This document shows positions 12,666-18,495 of a stretch of DNA of 20,126 nucleotides, piece after piece. Made by a program: the position numbers and the translations under genes. Each line of letters opens with the position of its first letter. Position 1 is the first letter of the stretch. The notes beneath the pieces were generated by a model. That model was given only the letters and a program-made list of their open reading frames with translations, did not search any database and was not told the origin of the DNA. Origin of the DNA: a virus; IMG/VR virus record IMGVR_UViG_3300030430_001497, positions 1-20,126 of that record; one strand, written 5' to 3'.

Positions 12666-14011
12666 TAAACCGCTCTCATGTAATTTTTCTTTTGAATTAA
12701 TTCAGATCTCATTCGCCTTACACCAAGCTCATAATCTCTCATAGAAAATTGTGCAGCGTTATCATTACCTCTTAATTGATGTACAAAATACTTTACCCTA
12801 GCCACTATCACATCGTGAAATCTTTTTGGTATTACAGGTATATCGCTAAACGCTGAAAGAGGTTCTGGCTCAAAGAACACTCCTAGTTCAATAGAATAAA
12901 AATCATTATCAGGTGATGGACACAAAAGAAATGCATCAAAATTTGTAGTAGATATTTCTTCTGGCTTACCATAGCCGCTATCAGGTGCAGATAAAGCACG
13001 ATACGCCCTTTCTCTCTTTGACGTATAGTTACGGCTACCTCTGTAGTATTCGTCTTTATCTAAAAAGTATAGATACTCACCAGATATATCATTTGGAAAC
13101 ACCTCTATAAAATCTACATCTACATTTGCGGATGCTTCATTACTAAGAGTGATAAACGTCTGTTGTGTCGATGCAGTGAAAGTGGTTGTCTGTATCTTTC
13201 CTCCCCCTACGTTAGATATGGAAAAAGACTCCGATAGGTCAGAGTCTTTGTCAGAAGAAGAGCCAGCAAACACTCTTAGAGTTACAGAAGTTGCGCTGCT
13301 TGTGCCTGATGAAAAGCGGATTGTCACTCTATAAGTATCATTCACTACAGTGGGTATTGCTTGATCCACTGTGCCAGCATTTAGTCGTAGCACACCTGCA
13401 GCGTAAGACAAATTTCCGCTAGAGGCATTTGACAGTGCAGGAGTGCCAGAGGTGCTTGTTCCTGCAGGGTTAGTTGATCTTGAGTTCCAATAGTCTGATA
13501 GTGTAAAGGTTTTGTCGAATGATCCGTTTGTAATTAAGTTTCTACCCACAATAAATGCAGTGTCAAAGTCAATGTCTGTGCAGTCAAGAATATTGCCACT
13601 GGTAGCGGTTGCGCTAGAGGATGCACCAGTTAACGTTTCTGAACTTTGAAAGATTCCGTCTTCAACTTCAACTATAAGAAACAGGGGGCTAATTTTTCTC
13701 ACTATGCCGATTGCACCGCTAGTACCTCCTGTTATTCTTTCATTCATGGTAAACGCACCAGATACGGAAGATACTTTTATTTTAGTGGGAAACTTATATT
13801 CTGCTCTACCACCAAATAGATTGTACTTTACTAACTCGTAATTATAGGGCCATTGATTGTGTTCATTGTTGATGTCACGAATAGCTCTATTCACATCTTC
13901 TTTAACTGTAGTTTGAATACCACGAGTACCCGATAGTCCTGCTGCAGATTCTGCAATAGTAGTTTCGTTTAAATCAAGTAACACCGCATTTATTATTTCT
14001 GCGTAGTTCAT
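12665..14011 (-). CDS. Tail adaptor (T7 gp11-like) with inserted beta domains, 448 aa
   Basis: Probable head-to-tail adaptor that docks on the portal and carries the nozzle. The ends resemble podoviral tail tubular protein A: N-terminal helix (MNYAEIINAVLLDLNE), VNRAIRDINNEHNQWPYNYEL (40-60), and a C-terminal helical part (about 385-448) with PKRFHDVIVARVKYFVHQL and MRDYELGVRRMRSEL. The middle is unusual. Residues 83-140 form a small beta unit (ERITGGTSGAIG, then ETLTGASSSATA). Residues 158-305 start NLITNGSFDKT and end in VDVDFIEVF, the layout of a CBM4/9-like jelly roll with a YRVTIRFSS strand in between. The core alone would be near the usual ~200-aa size. It overlaps the oxygenase stop by 4 nt and shares TAATG with the nozzle gene. 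Confidence 0.75.
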   Translation of the reverse strand: MNYAEIINAVLLDLNETTIAESAAGLSGTRGIQTTVKEDVNRAIRDINNEHNQWPYNYELVKYNLFGGRAEYKFPTKIKVSSVSGAFTMNERITGGTSGAIGIVRKISPLFLIVEVEDGIFQSSETLTGASSSATATSGNILDCTDIDFDTAFIVGRNLITNGSFDKTFTLSDYWNSRSTNPAGTSTSGTPALSNASSGNLSYAAGVLRLNAGTVDQAIPTVVNDTYRVTIRFSSGTSSATSVTLRVFAGSSSDKDSDLSESFSISNVGGGKIQTTTFTASTQQTFITLSNEASANVDVDFIEVFPNDISGEYLYFLDKDEYYRGSRNYTSKRERAYRALSAPDSGYGKPEEISTTNFDAFLLCPSPDNDFYSIELGVFFEPEPLSAFSDIPVIPKRFHDVIVARVKYFVHQLRGNDNAAQFSMRDYELGVRRMRSELIQKKNYMRAV

Positions 14012-14652
14012 TTATTTTGACCCCAAAATTTGTGAAGATAATTCAACACTAAATCAGTTTTTACTTTGATAGCCTTGGCCTGTTCAGAGTTTAGCTTCTG
14101 CACAAAGTCACCCACTTCAAATATGTTTTTTAGTATGAATGAACTTTCATATGATATATGAGAAGACATCCAACCTACTACGTTTTGACGAGTTCCCTTT
14201 GTAACCTTTTGAACACCGTGAGGGTATATTATGGGAAAGATTACAGCCTCACCAGCCTGTAGCTTTTTGCCTATCTGTCCAATGGGAGTTTGTATAATAA
14301 ACTCGCCACCCTCGTAATCATCATGTAGATTTACGCTCCAGCCATAATCAAAGTAAACGTTGTTTGATTTAGGCAAAGCCCTAAAATTATCTACATGTAA
14401 ATCGTAATAGTCACCTTCTTTGTATTTATTGTAAAAATTCACTGATACTCTGTTAGGACAATACACACTGTCTATATAAAAAGTATCGTACAAAGCACTT
14501 GTTATTCGTTTCTTAACTGAGTCAGGAACTGCAAGGGATTCTGAATTTTGTTTGTTAGTTCCCGTTTTTGTTCCGTCTTGGTAAGTTTTATCTTTAGGAA
14601 GATTGTCTAAACAAAACTTAACATCATTATCATCTAATAATTTAAAAAACAT
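14008..14652 (-). CDS. 2OG-Fe(II) oxygenase, PKHD/PiuC-like, 214 aa
   Basis: A 2-oxoglutarate and Fe(II)-dependent dioxygenase. With ATG 14652 as residue 1, the iron ligands are His86 and Asp88 (in DLHVDNFRALP) and His145 (in IYPHGVQKV), and Arg155 (TKGTRQNVVGW) is placed to bind 2-oxoglutarate. The segments HVDNxRxLP, DDYEGGEF, KLQAGEAVIFP and VTKGTR are the order seen in the PKHD-type hydroxylases such as PiuC/YbiX. All key residues are present, so it should be active. The substrate is unknown; hydroxylation of a protein side chain is one option, and small molecules or nucleic acid are others. It is the first gene after the terminator, and its stop overlaps the tail-adaptor start (ATGA). 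Its place inside the structural operon suggests late expression and perhaps a virion or host target. Confidence 0.88.
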   Translation of the reverse strand: MFFKLLDDNDVKFCLDNLPKDKTYQDGTKTGTNKQNSESLAVPDSVKKRITSALYDTFYIDSVYCPNRVSVNFYNKYKEGDYYDLHVDNFRALPKSNNVYFDYGWSVNLHDDYEGGEFIIQTPIGQIGKKLQAGEAVIFPIIYPHGVQKVTKGTRQNVVGWMSSHISYESSFILKNIFEVGDFVQKLNSEQAKAIKVKTDLVLNYLHKFWGQNK

Positions 14653-14658
14653 CTGTAT

Positions 14659-14664
14659 CTCCTT
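14659..14664 (-). promoter_or_regulatory. Ribosome-binding site that sets the oxygenase start
   Basis: AAGGAG lies six bases upstream of ATG 14652. A longer reading from TTG at 14667 would put this Shine-Dalgarno inside the coding sequence, so ATG 14652 is the preferred start. Confidence 0.8.
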
Positions 14665-14680
14665 CAAATCAAATCACAGC

Positions 14681-15221: not shown

Positions 15222-16196
15222 TTAGCTATAGTCAACGATGCCAAGGACAAGACTTTCGGGACGAAGAACCTTGCGACCAAAGACATGAAGACCACGTACA
15301 ACGTCAGCAAAGGAGTCTGGATCACGAATAGCTTCCGTCTTAGCAATCTGAGAAGCAGTTGCTGTGGAAGAAATGTGACCAGCGAGAACAACGTTCTCTC
15401 CTGAACCGACACCACTCACAGACACCATGTCCGTAGTTGTCGTAGCATCTGCAGATTGTCGCAGAGCATTTGACTTGTACAGAGTGAAGCCCATGATTTT
15501 TTGATTCGTTACAAGACCGTTACGAAGAGGAGATACATCATCGCCAGTTACTTGAACTTCAACGATTTTAGCACCCGCTTTGTAAAGGTTCTCATAAACA
15601 CGAGGCGGGGCTACAAACCAACGACCCTCTTCTGGCACATCTTGCTCATCAAGCTTTCGTGCCATAAGAGCCATGAGGTTTACAACGTCATCACCCGCAT
15701 CTGATCCTGCTACTGTTACAGGAGTGCCTGAAGTACCAAGATTGGAATCTGTTTCAACTGTGCCAGAAGCACCTTTGATTCCAGCATTATCAATCATGTT
15801 CTGCAGGACATTTTTATCAAAGTTACGCTTTAGAGAAAACGCACCAGAAGAAGTTGACAAAGCCTCAAAGTTTACATGAGATTGTCTTTCTTCTATGTCG
15901 TCCACTTTAAACGCAAACGCATTGGCCTGATCTACAGTCAATTGTATTTCATCATCTGCAAGGTCTTGCGGAGTTACCACAGAACCACGAGTGTAAGATG
16001 AAATGGTGATTGTTGGTTCTTTAATAATACGAACCGTGTCACCAAAGTTCTCAATTTCTCCCGCATAATCAGTATTTGTAATATCTTCAACTACTGATGC
16101 TCTACGAAAAAATTTAAGAACTTTTTGGCTATAGATTTCGGCCTGAAAATTACCCGAAGGTAGACTACCGTATCCGGCTGCAGTTCCTACTGCCAT
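15222..16196 (-). CDS. Major capsid protein, 324 aa
   Basis: The shell-forming protein of the head, expected to have the HK97 fold. Evidence is its place right after the scaffold gene, a size usual for podoviral capsid proteins, and a sequence layout typical of them: an N-terminal arm (IYSQKVLKFFRRASVVEDIT near residue 26), a GDTVRI strand (about 53-58), a helix-rich segment with VDDIEERQSH, and a C-terminal block with DPDSFADVVRGLHVFGRKV, the kind of late P-domain/A-domain strand seen before the end of many coats. The start ATG has GGAG upstream. The stop is followed at once by the AGGAGG of the next gene, so the pair should be co-translated at high level. No C-terminal frameshift extension like that of T7 gene 10 is evident. 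Confidence 0.88.
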   Translation of the reverse strand: MAVGTAAGYGSLPSGNFQAEIYSQKVLKFFRRASVVEDITNTDYAGEIENFGDTVRIIKEPTITISSYTRGSVVTPQDLADDEIQLTVDQANAFAFKVDDIEERQSHVNFEALSTSSGAFSLKRNFDKNVLQNMIDNAGIKGASGTVETDSNLGTSGTPVTVAGSDAGDDVVNLMALMARKLDEQDVPEEGRWFVAPPRVYENLYKAGAKIVEVQVTGDDVSPLRNGLVTNQKIMGFTLYKSNALRQSADATTTTDMVSVSGVGSGENVVLAGHISSTATASQIAKTEAIRDPDSFADVVRGLHVFGRKVLRPESLVLGIVDYS

Positions 16197-16208: not shown

Positions 16209-17054
16209 TTATCCATTAACGATACGTCCCTCTAATCGAGCTTGATCTAGTTCCTTTTCATATTTATCAAACTCGTTAGGTTTTAGGCGGCGTATCTCCG
16301 AAGTGGTCCACACCTTTTTGTTAGCATTAGCATTTGTTGCAATGTTTACAGAAGATGTTTTAGTAACAGCCTCTGCAGCCGCTGCATTGCCTTGCTTTCT
16401 AGGGCGACCACGTTTACTTTTGCCAATGTCGGCTTTGTACAAATCAAGAACTCGTGAAGCCCACTTAACGTCTGTGCTATTTTTTAGAATACCATCCGCT
16501 ATGCTAGGTGGCTGCAGTTTGATCCATTCTCTGAACTCATTAGATTTTTTGACTTCAGGAAAGTCATTGTGCAGGGCAAGCAATTCTTGGTAAGCACTTT
16601 TAGCCTTTAGTTTCTCCTCTTGCTGATTAAGACGAGTTACCTCTGCACGAAGCTCCTCAATCTCTTTTGCAGCACCACGAGTACTTAGGGCCTCAACTAC
16701 ATTATAAACATCAGGATAACTCTCTTTGAAAGATTCGATGTCATCTTCACTAATAGTAGGCTGAGAGTTTTGAGAAACTAAAGCGTCCTTTTCTTCTTTC
16801 CACTCATGCAGCTTGGCATCGTAATGTTTCTTGAGATCATCATAACGTTTTTTGTAGTCATGCTCTTCTGTCTTTACTTCAGTCTTTTCTTCCGCTTCAA
16901 CAGAAATGGTTTCATCTTGCATAAACGTTGTGTCTTCCTCTAGGGTAGCCTCTTCAGAAACTTCAGGAACATCGTCTTTGTAAACGTCCGCTCTGTACGC
17001 TCCTCTGTAGGGGCCTAGATTTTCTTGTTCTACTTCTTGTACTTGTTCTACCAT
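16209..17054 (-). CDS. Capsid scaffolding (head assembly) protein, 281 aa
   Basis: Probable scaffolding protein that directs capsid shell assembly and is absent from the mature head. It is the gene immediately before the major capsid gene (12 nt gap). Composition fits: an acidic Glu-rich N-terminus (1-65), a charged helical segment with HDYKKRYDDLKKHYD (65-79) then KLHEWKEEKD, a central coiled coil with ELRAEVTRLNQQEEKLK (134-150), and a basic C-terminal part. Residues 212-221 read KSKRGRPRK, a textbook AT-hook core (RGRP). The C-terminal helix (249-280, VWTTSEIRRLKPNEF onward) would be the expected capsid-binding end, as in other scaffolds. The start ATG at 17054 has an excellent AAGGAGG four bases upstream. 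Confidence 0.82.
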   Translation of the reverse strand: MVEQVQEVEQENLGPYRGAYRADVYKDDVPEVSEEATLEEDTTFMQDETISVEAEEKTEVKTEEHDYKKRYDDLKKHYDAKLHEWKEEKDALVSQNSQPTISEDDIESFKESYPDVYNVVEALSTRGAAKEIEELRAEVTRLNQQEEKLKAKSAYQELLALHNDFPEVKKSNEFREWIKLQPPSIADGILKNSTDVKWASRVLDLYKADIGKSKRGRPRKQGNAAAAEAVTKTSSVNIATNANANKKVWTTSEIRRLKPNEFDKYEKELDQARLEGRIVNG

Positions 17055-17065
17055 TTTTCCTCCTT

Positions 17066-17136
17066 GCGGGGCCGTGGGACGGGTAGCCGCTTATGTTGGT
17101 AGTATCTAACGCAGGGCCGTAAAACGGGTAGCTGCG
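17066..17136 (-). promoter_or_regulatory. Tandem GC-rich hairpins in leader of scaffold gene
   Basis: Two 25-nt direct repeats (17111-17135 and 17066-17090) lie 20 nt apart in the leader between the hydrolase and scaffold genes. As minus-strand RNA each folds the same way: an outer 4-bp stem, an asymmetric internal loop (CUAC opposite CC), an inner stem CCGU/ACGG and a 3-nt loop. The copies differ at five positions. Three are the whole terminal loop (UUU or CCC), and the other two are partners in the outer stem (A-U in one, G-C in the other). Thus every difference preserves the fold. Copy two abuts the AAGGAGG ribosome-binding site (17059-17065) of the scaffold gene. A regulatory or mRNA-processing role is inferred. 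The same DNA could instead encode a short peptide with a repeated YPxxGPA motif. Confidence 0.6.
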
Positions 17137-17151
17137 ATTTTTCAAAAAGAG

Positions 17152-18495
17152 TTATTGAAGAACTCTTTCTGGAAACTGCGTGATTTCTCTTTTATCCATC
17201 ACAGGCTGCACTTTGTCTAAACCAGAGCGCATACCTCTTGGAGGTTCTTTTAATAGTTCTCGACCCTCTGGAGGGGAGTTTATAGGTTTAGGTTTTTCTT
17301 TAGGTATGGGAATGGGTCGTTTAGGTAAACTAGAGTGAGTATCAAATAGTATGTCATGTAACCCAATTCTACCAACAAGTTGAAATCTTCCTGATTTTAA
17401 TCTGTCTTCAAAGAATTTTGCATCTTTCGGTTCTGTCTCATTTGGATTATAAAAAAAAGTAGCTCCCTCTGTAATATCTTCAAGAGTACCTGCTATCGCT
17501 TTGCTTGCTATATCCAAAGCAGTAGAATATCGTCTATCCGTATTTGCTCCTTTATAATTTTCATCTTGATATCCACTAAACTGCTTTCTCCCACCTTTTG
17601 TTTTATCAGATATTACATCTTTAAAACTTTCATACTTCTTAAAATCGGTTGTTTTATCTTTTAATCTATTTGATACTACGTTAGCTACTGATTGCATATT
17701 TCTATAGGTTTCTTTTTCATCTTCTCCTGATATGGCTTCAGCAATTAAAAGTCTGGCAAGCATTTCAACCTCACCACCATTTCTCATCCCAACCCGCTTA
17801 CCTAAAGCAGCTTGCATAGCAGCTTGTGGTTCTTGAGGTTGTTCTTTTTGTTTTTGTTCTTCTAACTTCTTTTCAGTTTCAGGTTTGCCACGATTATTAA
17901 TCTTTTCAAGTAATTCATATCCAATTTCTTCAGCAAGCAGTGGAGGTATATACAACTCTCTATTAGATGCTGCTATAGGAGTATCTCCTTGTACTTGTTG
18001 TTGGGGTTGAGTAATGGTGGCTAATTCAATCACTTGTCCTGTCCTCTCTTTTAAAGATTTAATATTAGGCTTCAGTATCCTATTAACAAAATCTCCGTAG
18101 CCAAAAAGTTTTAATGCGGCAGCGTTGACTATAAAAGATTTTTGCTCTGCATCCATTAACACATCATCTGCCACCCCAGAATTATCAGCACCTTCTTTTT
18201 GAATTGGCCCAGTAATTCCAACTGGCTCTGTAGGCTGATCTCCAAGTGCCATCAACTCACGAGTGATTGGAGACATTTCGTCAGTTTGAGGTATCTCTTT
18301 TTCCGGTTCACTAATCTCTTCAGAAGGCTCTGGCATTGGCTCTGGTTCAGGTAAATCAAAAGTTATTCCAAGGACTTTTGCAAACGCTTGAAGAGTAGTC
18401 GGTTCATTGTTTTCTATGAGACCTGCTACCATAGCTTTCTCTTCATCCTGTAGAGTTTCAAAGTTAGTCTCAAATTGTTGTTGTGTTATTTCCAT
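17152..18495 (-). CDS. SleB/CwlJ-type cell-wall hydrolase domain protein, 447 aa
   Basis: Likely a peptidoglycan-degrading enzyme. Residues about 243-390 match the pattern of the SleB/CwlJ hydrolase family (Hydrolase_2): LARLLIAEAISGE with the candidate catalytic Glu253, then VANVVSNRL (270-278), KQFSGY (304-309), ATFFYNP (345-351) and a closing VGRIGLHDILF. The first 235 residues are not catalytic: an acidic proline-rich stretch (49-70) and a Gln/Glu/Lys-rich linker (about 205-225), then RVGMRNGGEVEM directly before the enzyme domain. The tail is Pro/Lys rich. Start is ATG with an upstream AGGAAAA, 19 nt after the previous stop. No signal peptide is visible, so export would need a holin, or the protein may be carried in the virion to open the wall during entry. 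It lies with head genes, about 10 kb from the holin candidate, which suggests the virion option. Confidence 0.8.
   Translation of the reverse strand: MEITQQQFETNFETLQDEEKAMVAGLIENNEPTTLQAFAKVLGITFDLPEPEPMPEPSEEISEPEKEIPQTDEMSPITRELMALGDQPTEPVGITGPIQKEGADNSGVADDVLMDAEQKSFIVNAAALKLFGYGDFVNRILKPNIKSLKERTGQVIELATITQPQQQVQGDTPIAASNRELYIPPLLAEEIGYELLEKINNRGKPETEKKLEEQKQKEQPQEPQAAMQAALGKRVGMRNGGEVEMLARLLIAEAISGEDEKETYRNMQSVANVVSNRLKDKTTDFKKYESFKDVISDKTKGGRKQFSGYQDENYKGANTDRRYSTALDIASKAIAGTLEDITEGATFFYNPNETEPKDAKFFEDRLKSGRFQLVGRIGLHDILFDTHSSLPKRPIPIPKEKPKPINSPPEGRELLKEPPRGMRSGLDKVQPVMDKREITQFPERVLQ

Follow-up and report, generated by a model that had tools for sequence, protein, structure and literature searches.

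A structured RNA element with a conserved internal loop in the scaffold and capsid gene leaders of HMO-2011-type phages

The MS2 coat protein and T4 gp43 belong to autogenous translational operator systems, and the scaffolding protein of phage P22 represses its own synthesis. In T4 and RB69, self-repression by gp32 uses a structured operator, and such operators can diverge in sequence while their structure is kept (PMC535899). Other structured phage RNAs are the put RNA of HK022 (~70 nt, two stem-loops), which is located at early promoters and binds RNA polymerase, putL following PL (PMC9378689), and the conserved manA, wcaG and PhotoRC-II RNAs of marine phage genomes (PMC2864571).

Here we describe an element of the capsid block of HMO-2011-type phages, which reportedly dominate in the ocean and are widespread there (PMC9038755). 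A term search of that paper gave no mention of the element, and we did not find its description in the open-licence papers searched. Like the autogenous operators of phages, it is a structured RNA beside the Shine-Dalgarno sequence of a single gene within a block for assembly or replication; it has the hallmark of an operator, a conserved structured RNA that adjoins a ribosome-binding site. It differs from them in that recognition apparently resides in an internal loop, in both strand orientations, in that two copies are present, and in that it recurs at the capsid gene. The 13 nt before the P22 scaffold gene contain no such element. With HK022 put it shares the two stem-loops and, in the capsid leaders of relatives, a position close behind a promoter; unlike put, the scaffold copies lack a promoter and adjoin the Shine-Dalgarno sequence, and the element is not found in early regions. 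It differs from manA, wcaG and PhotoRC-II in the genes at which it stands and has no Rfam match: Rfam 15 returned 0 matches at gathering score for the window (the whole stretch of 20,126 nucleotides analyzed) and seven isolate loci, and the sub-threshold matches were to unrelated eukaryotic or lncRNA families, an isrG sRNA and a tmRNA model, none of them credible. The asymmetric internal loop within a helix is reminiscent of the C-loop, a likeness that serves as a lead only. The longer strand of a C-loop likewise begins with C. C-loops are recurrent RNA 3D motifs formed by an asymmetric internal loop inside a helix (PMC8570644).

The window locus

The two hairpins occupy the gap between the cell-wall hydrolase gene and the scaffold-like gene, which in turn precedes the major capsid gene (Table 1). 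They correspond to two 25-nt repeats that are 80% identical and lie 45 nt apart from start to start. On the minus strand, both fold into a 4-bp stem, a CUAC/CC internal loop, a CCGU/ACGG stem and a 3-nt loop; the five positions at which they differ are those of the 3-nt loop and of one outer pair (A-U or G-C). Sequence comparison and folding thus confirmed the repeat pair, the five fold-preserving differences and the shared fold that an earlier note had described, and the contact it had noted between hairpin 2 and AAGGAGG is real, the hairpin ending directly at the Shine-Dalgarno sequence.

Table 1. Coordinates of the features of the window locus.
Feature	Position	Strand	Description
Hairpin 1	17111..17135	minus	GCAG-CUAC-CCGU-UUU-ACGG-CC-CUGC; CUAC = 17128-17131, CC = 17115-17116
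Hairpin 2	17066..17090	minus	GCGG-CUAC-CCGU-CCC-ACGG-CC-CCGC; CUAC = 17083-17086, CC = 17070-17071
Linker between hairpins 1 and 2	17091..17110	minus	GUUAGAUACUACCAACAUAA; single-stranded by prediction
Shine-Dalgarno sequence of the scaffold-like gene	17059..17065	minus	AAGGAGG; adjoins hairpin 2
Scaffold-like gene	16209..17054	minus	281 aa; start at 17054; PHROG 13678 (function unassigned there)
Major capsid protein gene	15222..16196	minus	PHROG 267 major head protein, E 3.7e-66
Cell-wall hydrolase gene	17152-18495		PF07486

Two occurrences of the exact core pattern were found in the window, compared with 0.22 expected within 3 mismatches. The single-sequence folding energy of the window leader was not significant (z = 0.04), and the energies of the single hairpins were unremarkable (z = -1.0 and -1.7). 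The window sequence by itself proves little; it is the comparison with relatives that gives the proof. An intrinsic terminator, that is, a GC-rich hairpin followed by a U run, is not present, as AAGGAGGAAAA follows hairpin 2 and GUUAGAUA follows hairpin 1. Nor is there an RNase III site of ~20 bp of double helix, each simple window hairpin having 8-9 bp.

For the major capsid protein, relatives are annotated as P22-type coat protein. The 281-aa product may be the scaffold, a role suggested by the position of its gene ahead of the capsid gene and by its helical character: the AlphaFold2 model is mostly helical with a mean pLDDT of 73. It has no Pfam match and no significant PDB match, either by fold or by sequence. 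Its conserved basic helix KKRYDDLKRH was considered as evidence of an RNA binder and rejected as not specific, as the helix is recognisable also in phages without the RNA (RHph_TM3_14A and Slicky01). A 2OG-Fe(II) oxygenase gene (PF13640; window 14008-14667) lies within the structural gene block.

An RNA family in scaffold leaders

The window hairpins are members of a structured RNA family with a conserved asymmetric internal loop. The conserved part is the loop 5'-C[U/C/A]AC / 5'-C[C/A] between strongly covarying stems, and a C-G pair usually follows the CUAC strand in both loop orientations. Its carriers are tailed, mostly marine phages with alpha- and gammaproteobacterial hosts from several bacterial orders: HMO-2011-type podoviruses of SAR11, SAR116, Roseobacter and Rhizobium-type hosts carry it in the leader of the scaffold-like gene, and related elements are found in Vibrio and Aeromonas phages. 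A search with the core pattern yielded close relatives with the same tandem pair. In a second group (e.g. L059), the inner stems are wholly different (CUAC/GUAG, CCAC/GUGG) and the CUAC/CC loop is the same.

Eighty loci, 527 kb in total, were fetched solely by capsid protein similarity. A paired-stem descriptor matched the sense strand only (80 loci), with zero antisense or reversed matches. An unbiased census of the 527 kb of capsid loci revealed CUAC/CC, CUAC/CA and CCAC/CC as the three commonest 4x2 loops of the sense strand; none of them was among the top 4x2 loops of the antisense strand. Motif-blind MFE folding of 96 non-redundant leaders, a set that takes in loci found by motif, yielded 68 4x2 loops, 65 of which were of the family type, compared with 1 family-type loop in total in ten shuffled leader sets and 0 in the antisense strand. 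For the capsid-derived subset, in which no motif was used, the loop was obtained by MFE alone in 29 of the 54 leaders; the rest include several with mis-called starts or the composite form described below.

A covariance model built from 28 hairpins (CM R1) gave 78 matches with E < 1 across 49 capsid-gene loci. Every one of them is in sense orientation and in the scaffold leader, usually two per leader. Leader matches with E of ~0.005 or better were obtained for HTVC103P, HTVC104P, HTVC033P, CHOED, CRP-738, CRP-2, CRP-13, CRP-345, MQM1, Aeromonas phage 1233, HMO-2011 and phiM6, some of the matched phages having supplied training sequences. The window hairpins, both of which are training sequences, scored 31.6 bits (hairpin 1; E 2.4e-8) and 29.9 bits (hairpin 2). 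CM R1 detected no element in P22, AGM10, phiSASD1, RHph_TM3_14A or Slicky01. The last two have homologues of the scaffold gene without the element, which is therefore not obligatory. Motif matches in loci without a scaffold gene look scattered. An isolated match antisense to HMO-2011 mazG (L198 38731-38765, E 0.007) is probably due to chance. HMO-2011-like capsid loci in MAGs labelled Flavobacteriales, Neomarinimicrobiota and Euryarchaeota (L340-L347) are probably misbinned phage contigs.

Covariation was assessed on 75 distinct hairpins picked only by the sequence anchors GC[TCA]ACC and GGC[CA]C, which fix both loop-adjacent pairs and one strand of a third pair. In this alignment, 89.6% of the pairs were standard compared with 65.0 +/- 1.1 after shuffling, double-change cells numbered 189 compared with 58, and the score was 0.633 compared with 0.191; controls in which the alignment was slid were 23-44% paired. 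The free pairs (outer second to fifth, inner third to fifth) were paired in 53-99% of the hairpins, compared with 33-78% after shuffling. The structure and its covariation are well supported. The earlier note had proposed that the capsid block has a structured cis-acting RNA, to be given up if the stems of homologous leaders showed no covariation or changes were biased to third codon positions; on testing, the RNA reading survived, and it is supported by the strong covariation and the conserved position at the scaffold Shine-Dalgarno sequence.

Most scaffold leaders contain two loop copies, arranged either as tandem hairpins or as one long hairpin with inverted loops. Two CM hairpins, 37-62 nt apart from start to start, are present in 32 leaders, and the last hairpin ends a median of 14 nt (IQR 11-17; 63 leaders) before the AUG, with the Shine-Dalgarno sequence directly 3' of it. 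In the window, L028 and L101 the upstream sequence diverges and similarity returns from hairpin 1 on, so the inherited unit consists of the hairpins and the scaffold gene. The composite form of HMO-2011, Roseobacter and Rhizobium-type phages has the arrangement P1-CUAC-P2-CC-P3-loop-P3'-CUAC-P2'-CC-P1', in which the loops are inverted. In 21 distinct composite leaders P2 is paired in 95-100%, including CUAUG/CAUAG and UUAUC/GAUAA versions; most single composite pairs are not clearly above shuffles because variation is limited there.

In the minus strand of the window, a strand-swapped loop could arise by pairing of the 3' half of hairpin 1 (ACGG-CC-CUGC, 17111-17120) with the 5' half of hairpin 2 (GCGG-CUAC-CCGU, 17079-17090). 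The tandem and composite forms might be isomers of each other or might lie close together in evolution. In the MFE structure, CUCUUU after the hydrolase stop (17146-17151) can pair with AAGGAG (17060-17065) and so enclose both hairpins; by eye, this pairing is not kept in L028 or L101.

Flipped copies in capsid leaders

The window has no long scaffold-capsid gap. Phages that have such a gap carry a flipped loop, CC first and CUAC second, in the arrangement P1-CC-P2-loop-P2'-CUAC-P1'. It was found in 18 of 36 scaffold-capsid gaps, compared with 0 in the antisense strand and 0-3 in shuffled sequences. Among 34 distinct anchored flipped copies, the outer stem (third to sixth pair) was paired at 0.74-0.91 compared with 0.39-0.49 after shuffling. 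A motif-only scan with one flipped version matched 33 sites in loci that contain scaffold or capsid genes; a promoter-like sequence lies upstream of 32 of these sites, and at 31 loci the stem was extended and lay 48-55 nt after the scaffold stop. Only 1 of the 87 matches outside the capsid block had a stem, and none had a promoter. Motif-only scans of viral contigs thus yielded genuine structures at the scaffold and capsid leaders only.

In 59 of 72 non-redundant capsid leaders (0.7 expected), a sigma-70 promoter with no more than one mismatch is located upstream of the element. This promoter reads TTGACA-N16-TATAAC in most cases and lies ~30-45 nt after the scaffold stop (L357, L340, L201 and others). 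Most HMO-2011-like phages have a predicted promoter of their own for the capsid gene, and the flipped copies lie ~145-280 nt ahead of that gene, where its mRNA is predicted to begin. Because other strong HMO-2011 promoters have no such loop, the loop goes with the capsid genes rather than with promoters; both its specific location and its two orientations are well supported. By inspection, phiM6 and RHph_N3_13 have two-loop composites in the leaders of both genes.

An apparent second large structure, whose outer loop resembles [C/A]NAC/CC and whose inner loop is CC/CAC, is seen 3' of the flipped hairpin in the scaffold-capsid gaps of L201, L205 and L213. In phage ctYwJ313 (L211 3315-3884), an HNH-type endonuclease gene is located between the scaffold and capsid genes, in the promoter gap.

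Possible function of the element

Because the stems are free, the loop is fixed and both orientations occur, the loop itself would be what is recognised, most simply by a protein. The recognised part would be the internal loop CUAC/CC (C[U/C/A]AC / C[C/A], followed by the usual C-G pair), and the stems that present it may have any sequence provided that they pair. We give an even chance to the reading that the element is a structured RNA operator of the capsid block, in which a protein sitting on both loops would keep the 30S ribosome off the adjacent scaffold Shine-Dalgarno sequence. The favoured ligand would be the scaffold or coat protein itself; under such autogenous control, scaffold would be synthesised only while free scaffold is scarce. 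T4/RB69 gp32 (PMC535899) and the P22 scaffolding protein, both self-repressing, offer precedents for such a mechanism. Protein binding, the identity of the protein, translation as the target and the direction of regulation are what we infer here. Specificity for the two capsid-block genes and the contact with the Shine-Dalgarno sequence argue for control of scaffold translation; compact leaders could alone account for the closeness of the hairpin to that sequence. Through the element, the phage probably controls the amount of its scaffold or capsid proteins.

In relatives that carry strand-swapped copies, these 5'-end sites of the capsid mRNA would be bound by the same protein. Direct ribosome block is impossible there because of the distance to the capsid gene, which speaks against the operator reading, as do the scaffold-gene homologues that lack the element. 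A more speculative extension, somewhat less likely than not, is that the strand-swappable loop serves as a common RNA address of both capsid-block mRNAs, which a capsid or scaffold protein would read in either topology, balancing scaffold against coat. If true, this loop would be the first defined capsid-assembly RNA operator in a tailed phage known to us. The balance of scaffold and coat in tailed phages is an old question that the element opens to testing, as it is carried by tractable phages, among them Sinorhizobium phage phiM6 with copies before both genes. The two topologies and the one- and two-loop architectures provide a natural series on loop reading independent of strand connectivity, and the element is so specific that scaffold and capsid genes can be recognised by it in sequence data alone.

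The position of the flipped hairpin directly 3' of a near-perfect promoter would also suit a put-like antitermination or processivity RNA, whose nascent hairpins bind RNA polymerase and resist pausing and termination through the capsid and tail genes; HK022 putL likewise follows PL, and put RNA too consists of two stem-loops (PMC9378689). We regard this as rather unlikely, given that the best-conserved copies are those of the scaffold leaders, where they lie against the Shine-Dalgarno sequence and sigma-70 promoters are not enriched (5/178 compared with ~2.4 expected), that strong HMO-2011 promoters elsewhere lack the element, and that the phages carrying it infect hosts of several bacterial orders. 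Alternatively, the hairpins might act at the 5' ends of the scaffold and capsid mRNAs, either protecting or generating them. Hairpins at the 5' terminus do protect bacterial mRNA, and the flipped hairpin would be nearly the first structure of the predicted capsid transcript. A CUAC/CC loop conserved in both orientations is unneeded for protection alone, however, and at ~8-10 bp the simple hairpins fall short of a typical RNase III site, which makes a stability or processing signal unlikely.

With the loop conserved among phages that infect alpha- and gammaproteobacteria, a conserved host factor is as good a fit as a phage one, and the element might be the operator of a host RNA-binding protein or a riboswitch-like small-molecule sensor that couples capsid synthesis to the state of the host. 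This is quite improbable: as a metabolite pocket the recognised part would be very small, the stems and terminal loops vary freely, and the element is found only before the two capsid-block genes. The alternative raised in the earlier note, that the repeat codes for a short peptide (YPFYGPA/YPSHGPA), draws on a 60-aa open frame through both window repeats and is almost certainly wrong. Hairpin spacing breaks the frame, being 45 nt in L041 as in the window, 46 nt in L028, L032, L091 and L101, all of them close relatives, and 37-62 nt family-wide, and the base changes compensate pairs; in L116 the frame would give YLFLQP.

The linkers of tandem hairpins, in the window (17091-17110) and in relatives, are often rich in ACC or AACC, e.g. 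AACCUACC or AACCCAACC. By eye, complementarity of the linker to the window start codon (CUACCA / UGGUAG) is seen in the nearest relatives only.
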